A program made the position numbers and the translations under genes. A DNA stretch of 64,000 bases. Source: Bacteroidota bacterium (GTDB taxonomy: Bacteria > Bacteroidota > Bacteroidia > Flavobacteriales > Flavobacteriaceae). Positions 3,903 to 63,785 of this stretch are shown here, one piece after another. Numbering within the stretch: position 1 is the first letter of the stretch; every line of letters begins with the position of its first letter. The stretch spans positions 1-64,000 of the forward strand of contig JAJYSY010000005.1 in assembly GCA_021793375.1 (NCBI GenBank). The letters are read 5' to 3'. The notes below the pieces were generated by a model that worked only from the letters and a program-made list of their open reading frames with translations, was not told where the DNA came from and searched no databases.

Positions 3903-4217
3903 ATGACAAAGGAATTAGATCAAGATAACTTAGCTGAAGTAGTAAACAATCACGATACAGTGGTTGTACAATATATGGCTACTTGGTGCGGAAATTGCCG
4001 CCTGATGAAGCCAAAATTTAAAAAATTAGCCAGAGAAACTGAAGGAGTTGAATTTGTATATGTAGATGCAGAAAAGTTTCCTGAATCAAGAAAATTAGCT
4101 ACAGTTGATAATTTACCAACTTTTGCTACTTTCAAAAATGGAAAGTTTGTCAACCAAGTACAAACCAATAAATTTGAATCTTTAAAAAATTTAGTAGATG
4201 AAGTTACCAGTAATTAG
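3903..4217 (+). CDS. Thioredoxin family protein
   Basis: A small thioredoxin-fold protein of 104 residues without a signal peptide. The active site is WCGNC (Cys29 and Cys32), a variant of the classical WCGPC. The cis-proline loop is NLPTF. It probably recycles the neighbouring peroxiredoxin. Its last 20 bases overlap the start of the next gene (4198), indicating translational coupling. Confidence 0.9.
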   Translation: MTKELDQDNLAEVVNNHDTVVVQYMATWCGNCRLMKPKFKKLARETEGVEFVYVDAEKFPESRKLATVDNLPTFATFKNGKFVNQVQTNKFESLKNLVDEVTSN

Positions 4218-14525: not shown

Positions 14526-17381
14526 ATGAATACAGATATTTTTGCGTTGAGACATATTGGTCCTCGCCCCGAAAACACTCCGGAAATGTTAAAAACTATT
14601 GGAGTTGATTCTATTGAACAATTGATGTATGAAACCATCCCTGATGATATTAGAATTGAGGGGGAACTCGATTTACCGGAAGGACTTTCTGAGCAAGATT
14701 TTGCTGAACACATTGACCGTTTAGCGCAAAAAAACAAAAGATTTAAAACCTATATAGGTTTAGGTTATCACGCCACAAATCTACCGGCTGTTATCCAAAG
14801 AAATATTTTAGAAAACCCGGGTTGGTACACAGCTTACACTCCTTATCAAGCTGAAATTGCACAAGGGAGATTAGAAGCCTTACTGAATTTCCAAACTATG
14901 GTAAGCGATTTAACCGGTTTAGAATTAGCCAACGCTTCTTTATTGGATGAGGGAACTGCAGCAGCAGAAGCAATGACTATGCTTTATTCTGTTCGTGATA
15001 GAGCAAAAAAGAAAGCAAAAGCCTCTAAATTCTTTGTTTCAAAAGAAATTCTTCCACAAACTTTAGCAATTTTAAAAACAAGAGCGCTTCCTTTAGCAAT
15101 TACATTAGAAGTTGGAAATCACGAAGATTTTGACTTTTCTGAAGAATACTTTGGAGCTATTTTACAGTATCCGGGGGTTTCAGGAAAAGTATATGATTAC
15201 GCCGGCTTTATTGAAAAAGCGAATGAAAACAACATTAAAGTTGCAGTTGCAGCAGATATCTTAAGCTTAGTAAAATTACGCGCTCCGGGAGAAATGGGCG
15301 CTGATGTAGTAGTGGGAACCACCCAAAGATTTGGAATTCCTATGGGATATGGAGGTCCACACGCTGCTTATTTTGCCACAAAAACTGAATACCAAAGACA
15401 TGTTCCGGGAAGAATCATCGGAGTTACCAAAGATAAAGATGGAAACTTCGCCTTAAGAATGGCTCTGCAAACAAGAGAACAACACATCAAAAGAGCTCGT
15501 GCAACTTCTAATATTTGTACCGCTCAAGTGTTATTGGCTGTAATGGCAGGAATGTATGCAGTTTATCACGGTCCTAAAGGATTAAAACATATTGCAGATA
15601 AAGTTCATTTATCAGCGGTAAGATTAAGCGAAACTTTAAAAAACATAGGATTTGAACAACTTAACGATTCTTATTTTGATACAATTCGCATAAAAACAGA
15701 TGCAGAAAAAATCAGAGAAATTGCAGAAGCTTCAGAAATAAACTTTTATTACCCTGATAAAAACACAGTTTCAATTGCTTTAAACGAAACTACCTCTGAA
15801 AATGATCTCAACAATATTATAGCAGTTTTCACACAAGCTGCCGGAAAAACTTCTATCAAACTTAAAGAAGGAAAAGATATTTTAGAAAATTCTGCTATAG
15901 CAAGAAAAACAGATTATTTAACCCACGATATTTTTAATAGCTACCGCTCAGAAACAGAATTGATGCGTTATATTAAAAAACTGGAAAGAAAAGATTTATC
16001 TTTAACGCATTCCATGATTGCTTTGGGATCTTGTACTATGAAGTTAAATGCAGCTTCTGAAATGTTGGCCATCAGCAATCCACAGTGGGGAAACATACAC
16101 CCTTTTGTTCCTTTTGATCAAGCAGAAGGATATCAGGAGATGATCAAAAACTTAGAAAATCAACTTAGTACAATCACCGGACTTTCTGCAACTTCTTTGC
16201 AACCAAACTCAGGTGCACAAGGAGAGTTTGCAGGCTTGATGACCATTCGTGCTTATCATGAATCTCGCGGAGAGACTCATCGTAATGTGTGTTTAATTCC
16301 GGCTTCAGCTCACGGTACTAATCCGGCGAGTGCTTCCATGGCAGGAATGAAAGTTGTAGTAGTGAAATCGGAAGACAACGGAAATATCGATGTAGAAGAT
16401 TTACGTAAAAAAGCAGAAAAACACAAAGATAATCTTTCTGCTATTATGGTAACTTATCCTTCTACACACGGAGTTTTTGAATCTGCAATCAGAGAAATCA
16501 CCAAAATTGTTCATGACAACGGCGGTCAAGTTTACTTAGATGGTGCTAATATGAACGCTAAAGTCGGATATTCTCATCCCGGAAAAATCGGAGCAGATGT
16601 TTGTCATTTAAACTTACACAAAACTTTTGCTATCCCCCACGGAGGAGGCGGTCCTGGAGTAGGTCCTATTTGTGTTGCTGAACACTTAAAGCCATTTTTA
16701 CCTTCCAATCCATTTGTAAAAACAGGAGGAGAAAAAAGCTTAGATTCTATTTCTTCTGCTCCTTACGGATCAGCTTTAGTTTGCTTGATTTCTTATGGAT
16801 ATATCACTATGCTTGGAAAAACAGGATTAAGAAAAGCAACTGAATATGCAATCATCAATGCCAATTATGTAAAAGAAAGATTAAACAAACATTACACCAC
16901 TTTATATTCCGGAGAACGCGGAAGAGCTGCTCACGAAATGATTATCGATTGTCGTGAGTTTAAAGCAAAAGGAATTGACGTAATGGACATTGCAAAACGT
17001 TTAATTGATTATGGTTTTCATGCGCCAACTGTTTCTTTCCCGGTAGCCGGAACTTTAATGGTTGAACCAACAGAAAGTGAAAGCAAAGCAGAATTAGATC
17101 GTTTTTGTGAAGCGATGATTTCTATCCGAAAAGAAATTGAAGAATCTACAGCAGAAGACGCCAACAACGTATTAAAAAATGCCCCACACACCATGGAAAT
17201 GCTAACTTCTGATGAATGGAATTTACCTTATTCTCGTGAAAAAGCAGCTTTCCCTGTTGATTATGTAAAAGAAAATAAATTCTGGCCGGCAGTAAGAAGA
17301 GTTGATGAAGCTTATGGAGACAGAAACTTAATGTGTACTTGTCCGCCTATTGAATTATATATGGAAAAAGTGGAAGCTTAA
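14526..17381 (+). CDS. gcvP: Glycine dehydrogenase (decarboxylating), P protein
   Basis: The PLP-dependent P protein of the glycine cleavage system, which decarboxylates glycine and transfers the aminomethyl group to H protein. It is 951 residues, the normal length of the single-chain form with both half-domains. The PLP lysine is Lys699 in LNLHKTFAIPHGGGGPG. ATG 14526 (MNTDIFALRHIGPR) fits family N-termini better than ATG 14508, six codons upstream. No gcvT or gcvH is adjacent. A hairpin terminator overlaps the stop codon. Confidence 0.96.
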   Translation: MNTDIFALRHIGPRPENTPEMLKTIGVDSIEQLMYETIPDDIRIEGELDLPEGLSEQDFAEHIDRLAQKNKRFKTYIGLGYHATNLPAVIQRNILENPGWYTAYTPYQAEIAQGRLEALLNFQTMVSDLTGLELANASLLDEGTAAAEAMTMLYSVRDRAKKKAKASKFFVSKEILPQTLAILKTRALPLAITLEVGNHEDFDFSEEYFGAILQYPGVSGKVYDYAGFIEKANENNIKVAVAADILSLVKLRAPGEMGADVVVGTTQRFGIPMGYGGPHAAYFATKTEYQRHVPGRIIGVTKDKDGNFALRMALQTREQHIKRARATSNICTAQVLLAVMAGMYAVYHGPKGLKHIADKVHLSAVRLSETLKNIGFEQLNDSYFDTIRIKTDAEKIREIAEASEINFYYPDKNTVSIALNETTSENDLNNIIAVFTQAAGKTSIKLKEGKDILENSAIARKTDYLTHDIFNSYRSETELMRYIKKLERKDLSLTHSMIALGSCTMKLNAASEMLAISNPQWGNIHPFVPFDQAEGYQEMIKNLENQLSTITGLSATSLQPNSGAQGEFAGLMTIRAYHESRGETHRNVCLIPASAHGTNPASASMAGMKVVVVKSEDNGNIDVEDLRKKAEKHKDNLSAIMVTYPSTHGVFESAIREITKIVHDNGGQVYLDGANMNAKVGYSHPGKIGADVCHLNLHKTFAIPHGGGGPGVGPICVAEHLKPFLPSNPFVKTGGEKSLDSISSAPYGSALVCLISYGYITMLGKTGLRKATEYAIINANYVKERLNKHYTTLYSGERGRAAHEMIIDCREFKAKGIDVMDIAKRLIDYGFHAPTVSFPVAGTLMVEPTESESKAELDRFCEAMISIRKEIEESTAEDANNVLKNAPHTMEMLTSDEWNLPYSREKAAFPVDYVKENKFWPAVRRVDEAYGDRNLMCTCPPIELYMEKVEA

Positions 17382-59118: not shown

Positions 59119-59180
59119 AGCAAGAATTTATAAACACAGAAAAAGAAGAACTTAATATAACAATTCTTTAAGTAAAGGAT

Positions 59181-59255
59181 ATTTAAAAATCTTGTTAGCA
59201 AGCGAAGATTTTGCGGGATTTCAAAAAAACAGTTTTATAAATTATTCAAAATTCC
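59181..59255 (+). repeat. Left imperfect direct repeat flanking the DUF4160-DUF2442 pair
   Basis: It begins ATTTAAAAATCTTGTTAGCA and shares 34 of its first 42 bases with 60111-60152; similarity continues through AAAACAGTT and ATAAATT to about 59255. Confidence 0.75.
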
Positions 59256-59318
59256 GATAAGCGATTTTTTTTTCATTTAGAAATTGAAAAATCAAAAAAA
59301 ACAGGGTATTCCATAAAC

Positions 59319-59349
59319 TTTGAGGTTATAAAAATATACCCTATATTTG
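59319..59349 (+). promoter_or_regulatory. Complete promoter (-33 and -7) for the DUF4160-DUF2442 pair
   Basis: TTTG (59319-59322), 19 bases, then TATATTTG (59342-59349) is an exact match to the Bacteroidota TTTG-N19-TAnnTTTG consensus, the best in this window. ATG 59371 follows 21 bases later. Confidence 0.7.
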
Positions 59350-59370
59350 ATATGCGATTAATTATCTCTT

Positions 59371-59610
59371 ATGCCTACTGTATTTCGTTTTATGGGGTTT
59401 CGGTTTTCATTTTTCTCTAACGATCATGAACCTATTCATATTCACGTTACAAAAGGCGGAGACGCAGCCAAATTTAATGTAATACCACAAGTTAAGCTTG
59501 TAAAAAACATTGGATTTAAAAAATCAGAATTGAAAATGGTAGAATCCATTATTGAAGAAAACAAGGAAATAATCATTAATCGATGGAAAGAATTTTTCTC
59601 GGAAGAATAA
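59371..59610 (+). CDS. DUF4160 family protein (toxin-antitoxin-like pair)
   Basis: 79 residues. It starts MPTVFRFMGFRFSFFSNDHEPIHIHV, the DUF4160 signature (PxxHxHV). Biochemical function is not established. DUF4160 genes are usually next to DUF2442 genes, as here with a 7-base gap, and the pair is generally regarded as toxin-antitoxin-like. It has a perfect promoter of its own and lies between direct repeats. Confidence 0.9.
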   Translation: MPTVFRFMGFRFSFFSNDHEPIHIHVTKGGDAAKFNVIPQVKLVKNIGFKKSELKMVESIIEENKEIIINRWKEFFSEE

Positions 59611-59617
59611 TAAGTTT

Positions 59618-60043
59618 ATGGAATTAACAGTAAAAGATATTGAACGAATTTGGGTGACCGAAGACGCAATTCACCTTAAAACCAAAGATGGGAAAACTGC
59701 TTATGAATTATTTGCAGATTACCCTCGATTGGCCAAAGCAACTCCTAAAGAACGAAAAGATTATCAAAAAACCCCTTTTGGATTATATTGGAAAAAAATA
59801 GACGAAGACTTGAGTTACGCCGGATTTTTTAAAACTAAAAATAAACGGTCAATGTTAGGCGAACTTTTTGATTTTTTAGAAGTCCTCAATATATCGGCCT
59901 TTGCAAGACGATTGGGGATTTCTCAGCCTTTAATGGCAGCTTATCTTAATGGATCTAAAAGACCGGGAAAAAAACGACGAAAACAAATAACTGAAGAATT
60001 ACATAAAATTGGCAAAGAACTAAGTAATGTTAAATTACCATAA
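59618..60043 (+). CDS. DUF2442 protein with C-terminal helix-turn-helix
   Basis: 141 residues. The N-terminal DUF2442 part (about 1-82) includes VTEDAIHLKTKDGKTAYELFADYPRLAKATPKERKDYQ. The C-terminal part (about 83-141) reads LEVLNISAFARRLGISQPLMAAYLNGSKRPGKKRRKQI, a Cro/XRE-like helix-turn-helix. Fusion of DUF2442 to a DNA-binding domain fits an antitoxin that represses its own operon. It follows DUF4160 by 7 bases. Confidence 0.88.
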   Translation: MELTVKDIERIWVTEDAIHLKTKDGKTAYELFADYPRLAKATPKERKDYQKTPFGLYWKKIDEDLSYAGFFKTKNKRSMLGELFDFLEVLNISAFARRLGISQPLMAAYLNGSKRPGKKRRKQITEELHKIGKELSNVKLP

Positions 60044-60110
60044 CAACAGCGAAGAATCCTTTCCTCATGTAATTTGTTTAAAATGTGAGTAAGCGAATTC
60101 TTTCGTTATT

Positions 60111-60188
60111 ATTTAAAAATCTTGTTGACAAGCGAATATTTTATAAGTTTTCATTTTAAAACAGTTGAATATAAATTGTTTAAAATCC
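60111..60188 (+). repeat. Right imperfect direct repeat flanking the DUF4160-DUF2442 pair
   Basis: It begins ATTTAAAAATCTTGTTGACA and corresponds to 59181-59255. The two copies are 930 bases apart and bracket the whole two-gene unit with its promoter. Confidence 0.75.
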
Positions 60189-60267
60189 ACAATACAATCG
60201 CGGAACAACTGTAAGGCAAAAAACCTCACTAACATTCTTATTAGTAATTTGAATATGGAATACCACG

Positions 60268-60275
60268 TATTTTTG
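60268..60275 (+). promoter_or_regulatory. -7 promoter box for the YbjQ-like gene
   Basis: TATTTTTG matches TAnnTTTG, 42 bases before ATG 60318. A TTTG lies 16 bases upstream at 60248-60251, slightly closer than usual. Confidence 0.5.
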
Positions 60276-61850: not shown

Positions 61851-63785
61851 ATGAAAAAGTCATTTTTTTTACTTCTTTTTACTTTATTTATTTCAGCAGG
61901 AGTTTTTGCTCAATACGCTACTTATCGTATTGAAAAAGGAGAATCTCTCTCTGATGTTGCAGAGAAATTTGAAGTAAGCCCTGAAGCGATAAAAAAACTT
62001 AATCCCGATTTAAAAGAAGGAAATTTAGAAAATAAAACCATTATTATTCCTTCTCGAGAAACTACAGAGAAAACAGAAAAAGCTTCGAGAATCAGGTTTA
62101 AGGAATATCGTGTAAAACCAAAAGAAACGCTTTATAGTCTTGCAAAACGAAATAATGTTGAAGTAGAAGACATCAAAAAATACAATCCTTATTTGTATGA
62201 TGAAGAGTTGGGAGAAAATGATATGATAAAAATTCCGGTGTATGAAAGTGAAATAGAAAGCTTCAACGCTTCTTTGCAAACTTCAACTTTTGAAAACATC
62301 ATTCATATTGTGATGCCAAAAGAAACAAAATATGGAATTTCAAAAAAATATGGAATCAGTGTAGAAAAATTGGATTCTTTAAATCCGATGATCAAAGAAT
62401 TAAAACCCGGTCAGTTTTTAAAAGTAATCAACCCCACAGCGGTTAAAAAAGAAATAGAAACCAAGTTTGAATATTATAAGGTTCAACCTAAAGAAACACT
62501 TTATAGTTTGACTAAAGAATTAGGTGTTTCTACTGATTCTTTAGAAAAACTAAATCCGATTTTAAAAGAATTAGGTCTTCAAGCCGGAATGGAACTCCGT
62601 ATTCCTATTGGTTCTGCAGAAGAAATTGAAGAATCTATCGACAAGAAGGTAGATTTAAGTAAAAATCTCAAAAACCTGTCTAAACAAGAAATTGCTATTT
62701 TTCTTCCTTTTAATTTGACTCAATTTGACGAACTGAAAAAGAAAAAAGAGGAAGATGAGGAGGAAGAAGAAAAAGAGGAAAAAGAAACCGAAGAAGATCT
62801 TTTAAAAAGAGATGCTTATCTTCAAATTGCTTTAGATTTATACAGCGGAATTAAAATCGCTTTAGATTCTGCTGATAAGATGGGGATTTCTGTAGATACA
62901 AAAGTTTTTGACACCCAAAGAAATTCTGCTAAAATTGATGAAATCTTGAGAAATAATAACTTCAAAGACACCAAAATAATTATTGGTCCTTTGATTTCTT
63001 CTCATATTGAAAAAGTTGCCAAACATTTAAGTCATCAAAACACAGCAATTTTTAGTCCATTGACCAGCAGTGAATTATCAGGAAGTGATAAGATTTTTCA
63101 AAGTCGTCCTTCTTCTGTCATAAAAGAACAAGTTTTAACAAAATACATCAAAGAAAATCAAACAGAAAAAAATCTATTGATTTTAAGCAATCAAAGCAGA
63201 GCGAGTTTTGTGCAAAAGCTTAGTTCAGAACTTTCTAATCTTCGAAAAATCAGTCAAGCAAACGAAGAATATTTACAAAGATCTGATTTGGAAAAAATGT
63301 TGGATAAAGACAGACCAAACTGGATAATTATTGAAACTGATGATTTGGGCGCAATCAACAATGCAATTTCAAACTTGAATGCGATTCGATCTAAATATGA
63401 AATCAGAATCTTTACTTCGGATTTAAGCAAAATCAACGACGCAGAAGTAGAAAGTGAATACCTCAGCCACTTAAACTTTACTTATGCTTCTGTGGATAGA
63501 AGTGATACCGCAAGGGAAAATGATTATTTTGTTCAAAAATATCTTTCAGAATATGGGGTAATGCCAAGTTCATACGCCATCAGAGGTTTTGATGTAACTT
63601 TGGATGCTATCCTCAGAGCTGCTTTTAATAAAGATATTTTTAAAGGAATCAAGAAAACAAAAGGATATACAGAATATGTAGAAAACAGATTTGATTACAA
63701 ATCTAAATCTAAGCAAGGTTTTTACAACAATGCTGTTTATCTGCTTCAATTTGATGAAGATTTACAATTAAAAGTAATCAACTAA
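61851..63785 (+). CDS. Exported protein with LysM repeats and periplasmic-binding-like domain
   Basis: 644 residues. A signal peptide ends near AGVFAQ. Four LysM-like repeats follow (YRIEKGESLSDVAEKF, YRVKPKETLYSLAKRN, IVMPKETKYGISKKYG, YKVQPKETLYSLTKEL; about 22-245). An acid-rich stretch (about 298-316) precedes a C-terminal type I periplasmic-binding-like domain (IALDLYSGIKIALDSADKMGI, IIGPLISSHIEKVAKHL). It should bind peptidoglycan and possibly a small ligand. The OsmC gene starts 3 bases after its stop. Confidence 0.88.
   Translation: MKKSFFLLLFTLFISAGVFAQYATYRIEKGESLSDVAEKFEVSPEAIKKLNPDLKEGNLENKTIIIPSRETTEKTEKASRIRFKEYRVKPKETLYSLAKRNNVEVEDIKKYNPYLYDEELGENDMIKIPVYESEIESFNASLQTSTFENIIHIVMPKETKYGISKKYGISVEKLDSLNPMIKELKPGQFLKVINPTAVKKEIETKFEYYKVQPKETLYSLTKELGVSTDSLEKLNPILKELGLQAGMELRIPIGSAEEIEESIDKKVDLSKNLKNLSKQEIAIFLPFNLTQFDELKKKKEEDEEEEEKEEKETEEDLLKRDAYLQIALDLYSGIKIALDSADKMGISVDTKVFDTQRNSAKIDEILRNNNFKDTKIIIGPLISSHIEKVAKHLSHQNTAIFSPLTSSELSGSDKIFQSRPSSVIKEQVLTKYIKENQTEKNLLILSNQSRASFVQKLSSELSNLRKISQANEEYLQRSDLEKMLDKDRPNWIIIETDDLGAINNAISNLNAIRSKYEIRIFTSDLSKINDAEVESEYLSHLNFTYASVDRSDTARENDYFVQKYLSEYGVMPSSYAIRGFDVTLDAILRAAFNKDIFKGIKKTKGYTEYVENRFDYKSKSKQGFYNNAVYLLQFDEDLQLKVIN

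Follow-up and report, generated by a model that had tools for sequence, protein, structure and literature searches.

The 64-kb stretch of Bacteroidota DNA analyzed here (the window) carries, at 59371..59610 on the + strand, a gene for a 79-aa DUF4160 protein (PF13711, E = 4.5e-20), a putative DhiT-type toxin. On the same strand, 7 bp downstream, lies the gene for a 141-aa DUF2442 antitoxin with a fused helix-turn-helix (59618..60043; PF10387, E = 1.9e-9). A DUF4160 gene followed directly by a DUF2442 gene, toxin first, is the arrangement of the DhiTA family, and assignment of the pair as a DhiTA-type toxin-antitoxin module with a helix-turn-helix joined to the antitoxin is well supported. Both domain matches and the C-terminal helix-turn-helix bear out the first-pass annotation, which had described a two-gene toxin-antitoxin-like unit with an antitoxin-like protein of this fused type. 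PADLOC returned no match.

In Dickeya dadantii 3937, the DUF4160/DUF2442 pair dhiTA was shown experimentally to be a toxin-antitoxin system, in which the toxin slows growth and coexpression of the antitoxin abolishes the effect; promoter activity is reduced by the antitoxin and by the complex (PMC8198452). The window pair shares with dhiTA the combination of domains, the toxin-first order, and the compact operon. Its toxin, in contrast, scores 28 bits, far under the 100-bit cutoff of the NCBIfam DhiT equivalog, making it a relative of DhiT and not an equivalog. Set beside dhiTA, the helix-turn-helix tail and a conserved operator are features described here for the window module and its relatives.

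The toxin has invariant residues D18-H19-x-P21-x-H23-x-H25, possibly an active site or a metal site. Comparison of its predicted model with the PDB gave no informative match, which does not in itself imply a new fold. In the antitoxin, the DUF2442 domain spans aa 9-72 and the helix-turn-helix about aa 80-140, the final 60 residues matching the helix-turn-helix tails of HicB-type antitoxins. The predicted structure (mean pLDDT 87, pTM 0.54) has a DUF2442 fold followed by what is modeled as a repressor-type helix-turn-helix; the N-terminal domain of the model resembles 3k8r (Z of 8.5, rmsd of 2.3 over 71 residues). The best Foldseek match, extending across both domains (E = 4.5e-3), was NE0471 of Nitrosomonas europaea (PDB 2auw), a putative DNA-binding protein of two domains; with 12% identity and a poor global superposition (rmsd of 8.6 over 127 residues), its domain arrangement may differ from that of the antitoxin. 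Downstream of the antitoxin gene, a long imperfect hairpin at 60048..60107 on the + strand (RNA fold z of -2.68; 3 of 200 shuffles fold equally well) is possibly a terminator, and a terminator scan did not pick it up.

Upstream of the toxin gene, a match to TTTG-N19-TAnnTTTG starts at 59319 on the + strand, with a -33-like TTTG at 59319..59322, assigned by consensus match only, and a -7 box, TATATTTG, at 59342..59349. This promoter had been called the only one of its kind in the window, which is incorrect, as a second exact match begins at 4146. The accompanying suggestion of a regulatory site near 59319-59349 is backed by a conserved candidate operator, the 18-bp palindrome GGTTATAAAAATATACCC at 59324..59341, which is one mismatch from GGTWA-N8-TWACC and abuts the -7 box. 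The layout is repeated in relatives: the palindrome is found upstream of their toxin genes and abuts or adjoins the -7 box TAnnTTTG, reading GGTTATAATTTTATAACC in Pedobacter sp. BS3 and GGTAATAAAATAATTACC in phages. It also precedes hicAB operons whose HicB bears the same helix-turn-helix tail (GGTAAATAATTATTTACC is one example). These Bacteroidota HicAB systems have in common with the window module the tail and the operator palindrome by the -7 box but differ in having a HicA toxin and the toxin-binding part of HicB, where the window has DUF4160 and DUF2442. Among protein parts, the helix-turn-helix alone is common to both, and the window pair does not belong to HicAB.

When up to one mismatch from GGTWA-N8-TWACC was allowed, the palindrome was found upstream in 11 of 16 loci encoding the helix-turn-helix tail, against 1.1 expected from shuffles, and in 0 of 25 DUF2442 loci without the tail. 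All seven viral contigs found have it, three of them (L127, L128, and L130) being near-identical. A pooled Fisher test of palindrome against tail gave 2e-8, a value that serves as a guide only, because some loci defined the motif and others are related. The palindrome is absent from loci with remoter HicB tails (L102 and L104-L112). Since it accompanies either DUF2442 or HicB antitoxins, the tail and the operator appear to travel together. On this comparison of sequences, we infer that the tail binds the candidate operator and that toxin-antitoxin modules could cross-regulate one another.

The closest relative found is the module of Pedobacter sp. BS3, whose antitoxin is 57% identical to that of the window. 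DUF4160 together with the fused antitoxin is also present in phage record MT836146 and in seven IMG/VR contigs; a profile search of IMG/VR yielded these contigs, and searches of plasmids and IMG/VR with the window antitoxin alone yielded nothing. Judging by the relatives found, the window comes from Bacteroidota and from a Flavobacteriaceae-like family. No full-length antitoxin match was found in other genomes, with 98 relatives searched, and the phylum sample listed DUF2442 for no other member of the family; several of the genomes used are incomplete. The antitoxin's relatives in Pedobacter and in phages point to closest relatives outside the family. Family f32 includes two genera with many DUF2442 genes per genome (at least 14 scored matches), mostly without the helix-turn-helix. 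In Bacteroides phage BT-TP2 (PQ571279, L090:1917-2653), DUF4160 and DUF2442 genes are accompanied by a separate third gene for the helix-turn-helix, the latter two being fused in the window, and the upstream region contains two operator-like palindromes. Two relatives have a shortened or interrupted toxin gene beside an intact antitoxin gene: in viral contig L126 (2769-2903), the DUF4160 frame stops after 44 aa, and in Pedobacter sp. BS3 (L063:5639-5997), an early stop and an insert rich in GC interrupt the DUF4160 gene.

The gene pair is flanked by direct repeats, a left copy at 59180..59252 (A) and a right copy at 60110..60186 (B), which are about 75 bp long and 78% identical with two small gaps. 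Over the first 44 bp, which align without a gap, identity is 82%. The local alignment score is 67, whereas 500 dinucleotide shuffles reached at most 43 and about 2,000 random window pairs at most 40, so that chance similarity is excluded; the first-pass annotation was right that imperfect direct repeats bracket the pair, and right about their coordinates. A search of the genome itself (a 2.34-Mb assembly in 101 contigs, 88.9% complete) with the repeat found just two copies (E = 6.6e-10), as did a search with the repeat core motif. In a search of the window at spacings of up to 2.5 kb, A/B was, as far as checked, the sole noncoding pair of such quality. Four other repeat families were listed; the pair at 62111-62516 lies inside a LysM gene, and the rest, those at 1312-2033 and 16841-17274 among them, look like repeats within genes. 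Shuffled sequences fold as well as the A/B repeats do.

Between A and B there are just the two genes and no transposase gene. On inspection by eye for integron attC ends (RYYYAAC/GTTRRRY), a matching pair was seen neither within the repeats nor downstream of the antitoxin gene. An inverted 21-bp near-repeat containing GGTATTCCATA is located at 59295-59315, before the toxin-antitoxin promoter, and at 60254-60274, at the likely promoter of YbjQ. It was considered as a pair of transposon ends and rejected: the copies are 86% identical over 21 bp, target duplication was not observed, and the likely YbjQ promoter overlaps with the copy on the right. The pair is possibly a regulator site common to the two promoters, or a chance occurrence.

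Acquisition by insertion, as proposed in the first-pass annotation, is favored by the repeats, by the sporadic distribution in the family, and by the only congener, G001 (85% complete), in which the module is absent. This genome keeps the YbjQ gene (62% identical) and the LysM gene, with a different gene upstream and no Usp gene between. For the window, no empty site at base level was found in relatives: the congener is too distant, with 62% identity at the neighboring gene and a differing upstream region, and no clear trace of the window repeat was seen near its YbjQ gene.

A better-resolved parallel is provided by Pedobacter sp. BS3, in which an exact 29-bp direct repeat, with only two copies in that genome, flanks the module. 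On the right, the repeat forms the 3' end of a bactofilin gene; on the left, it is an orphan. A congener (G487) has the same ahcY-bactofilin neighbors with about 360 bp between them and no module, the intervening sequence being too diverged to reveal the 29 bp. The antitoxin gene of BS3 is AT-rich, at 34.5% GC against 46% for the locus. Because one repeat copy belongs to a host gene and a congener lacks the module, this locus is best explained by insertion with a long target duplication, and that reading is well supported. Insertion with a long, variable target duplication has been described for restriction-modification systems (PMC3031569, citing Nobusato et al. 2000, a study cited also in PMC2654758). 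On the reading given here, the likeness consists of an addiction-type gene pair between long direct repeats derived from the target; the window and Pedobacter inserts are, in contrast, toxin-antitoxin modules.

Most other toxin-antitoxin loci examined have no flanking repeats, so repeat-bracketed insertion is no general rule, and two further candidates were discarded. A HicAB pair in L111 scored 141 against 41 as a third flanking duplication, but that repeat is promoter-like and dispersed, occurring four times in the L111 genome and as an array in another. The repeat near the viral copy in L126 is a GC-rich, terminator-like sequence that occurs several times. In the Flavobacterium-like genomes of L148:138-5989 (G795) and L111:141-1081 (G416), a 60- to 90-bp promoter-like repeat precedes many small genes, one set of which is a nearly identical HicAB pair; this has the look of a phage or plasmid in which one promoter recurs.

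For the window itself, an identity of only 78% between the repeats leaves room for an older duplication or another origin. From the analogy with Pedobacter, the window repeats would be an older target duplication of the same kind. The strongest competitor, which we consider unlikely, is that a regulatory or intergenic segment was duplicated locally, independently of the arrival of the module: both copies are intergenic and upstream of genes, their divergence permits an old event, and, as the L111 HicAB locus illustrates, the repeats that flank a module may be promoter-type sequences of the dispersed kind. Against it, the only two genome copies exactly flank the module, and the closest relative, Pedobacter BS3, is bracketed too. 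Still less probable is a small mobile cassette that uses the repeats for recombination and whose recombinase acts in trans. Such a cassette would account for a bracketed module with no recombinase gene of its own and for the similar repeat spacing in the two related modules (930 bp in the window and 951 bp in Pedobacter sp. BS3), but the two repeats share no sequence, that of Pedobacter coincides with a host gene's 3' end, neither is found elsewhere in its genome, and no common ends of the two modules were seen outside the genes. That the lineage inherited the pair from its ancestor, with losses elsewhere and incidental repeats, is very improbable, since it would fit the even GC content (32.7% for the module and 32.3% for the window) but not the exclusion of chance similarity or the 98 relatives without a full-length antitoxin match.

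We therefore consider it reasonably probable that the locus is a self-repressing DhiTA-type operon that was gained horizontally and inserted with a target duplication of about 75 bp; toxicity, neutralization, repression, and the origin of the repeats are the parts that we infer. The first gene of the operon would encode the small DUF4160 toxin and the second the antitoxin, whose DUF2442 part would bind and neutralize the toxin. The helix-turn-helix, probably as a dimer, would bind the palindrome at 59324-59341 and repress the operon's own promoter, more tightly when toxin is bound, as reported for Dickeya. Were the antitoxin to fall, the toxin would most likely act on a cellular target. The operon would have landed between a small, leftward-read gene and the YbjQ-Usp genes, duplicating about 75 bp of target DNA, and the copies would later have diverged to 78% identity.

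A broader proposal, which we advance tentatively and hold to be somewhat short of an even chance, is that in Bacteroidota a portable regulatory cassette, made up of the helix-turn-helix and its operator, is swapped among unrelated antitoxin folds (DUF2442, HicB, or a separate third gene) and that small toxin-antitoxin operons insert themselves with long target duplications, as is reported for restriction-modification systems. Unrelated toxin-antitoxin modules that share a cell could then repress one another. A precise candidate operator is now available for a little-studied toxin-antitoxin family, and unrelated families may have a swappable regulator in common. The two probable repeat-bracketed insertions offer material for understanding how toxin-antitoxin genes that lack a recombinase enter chromosomes.
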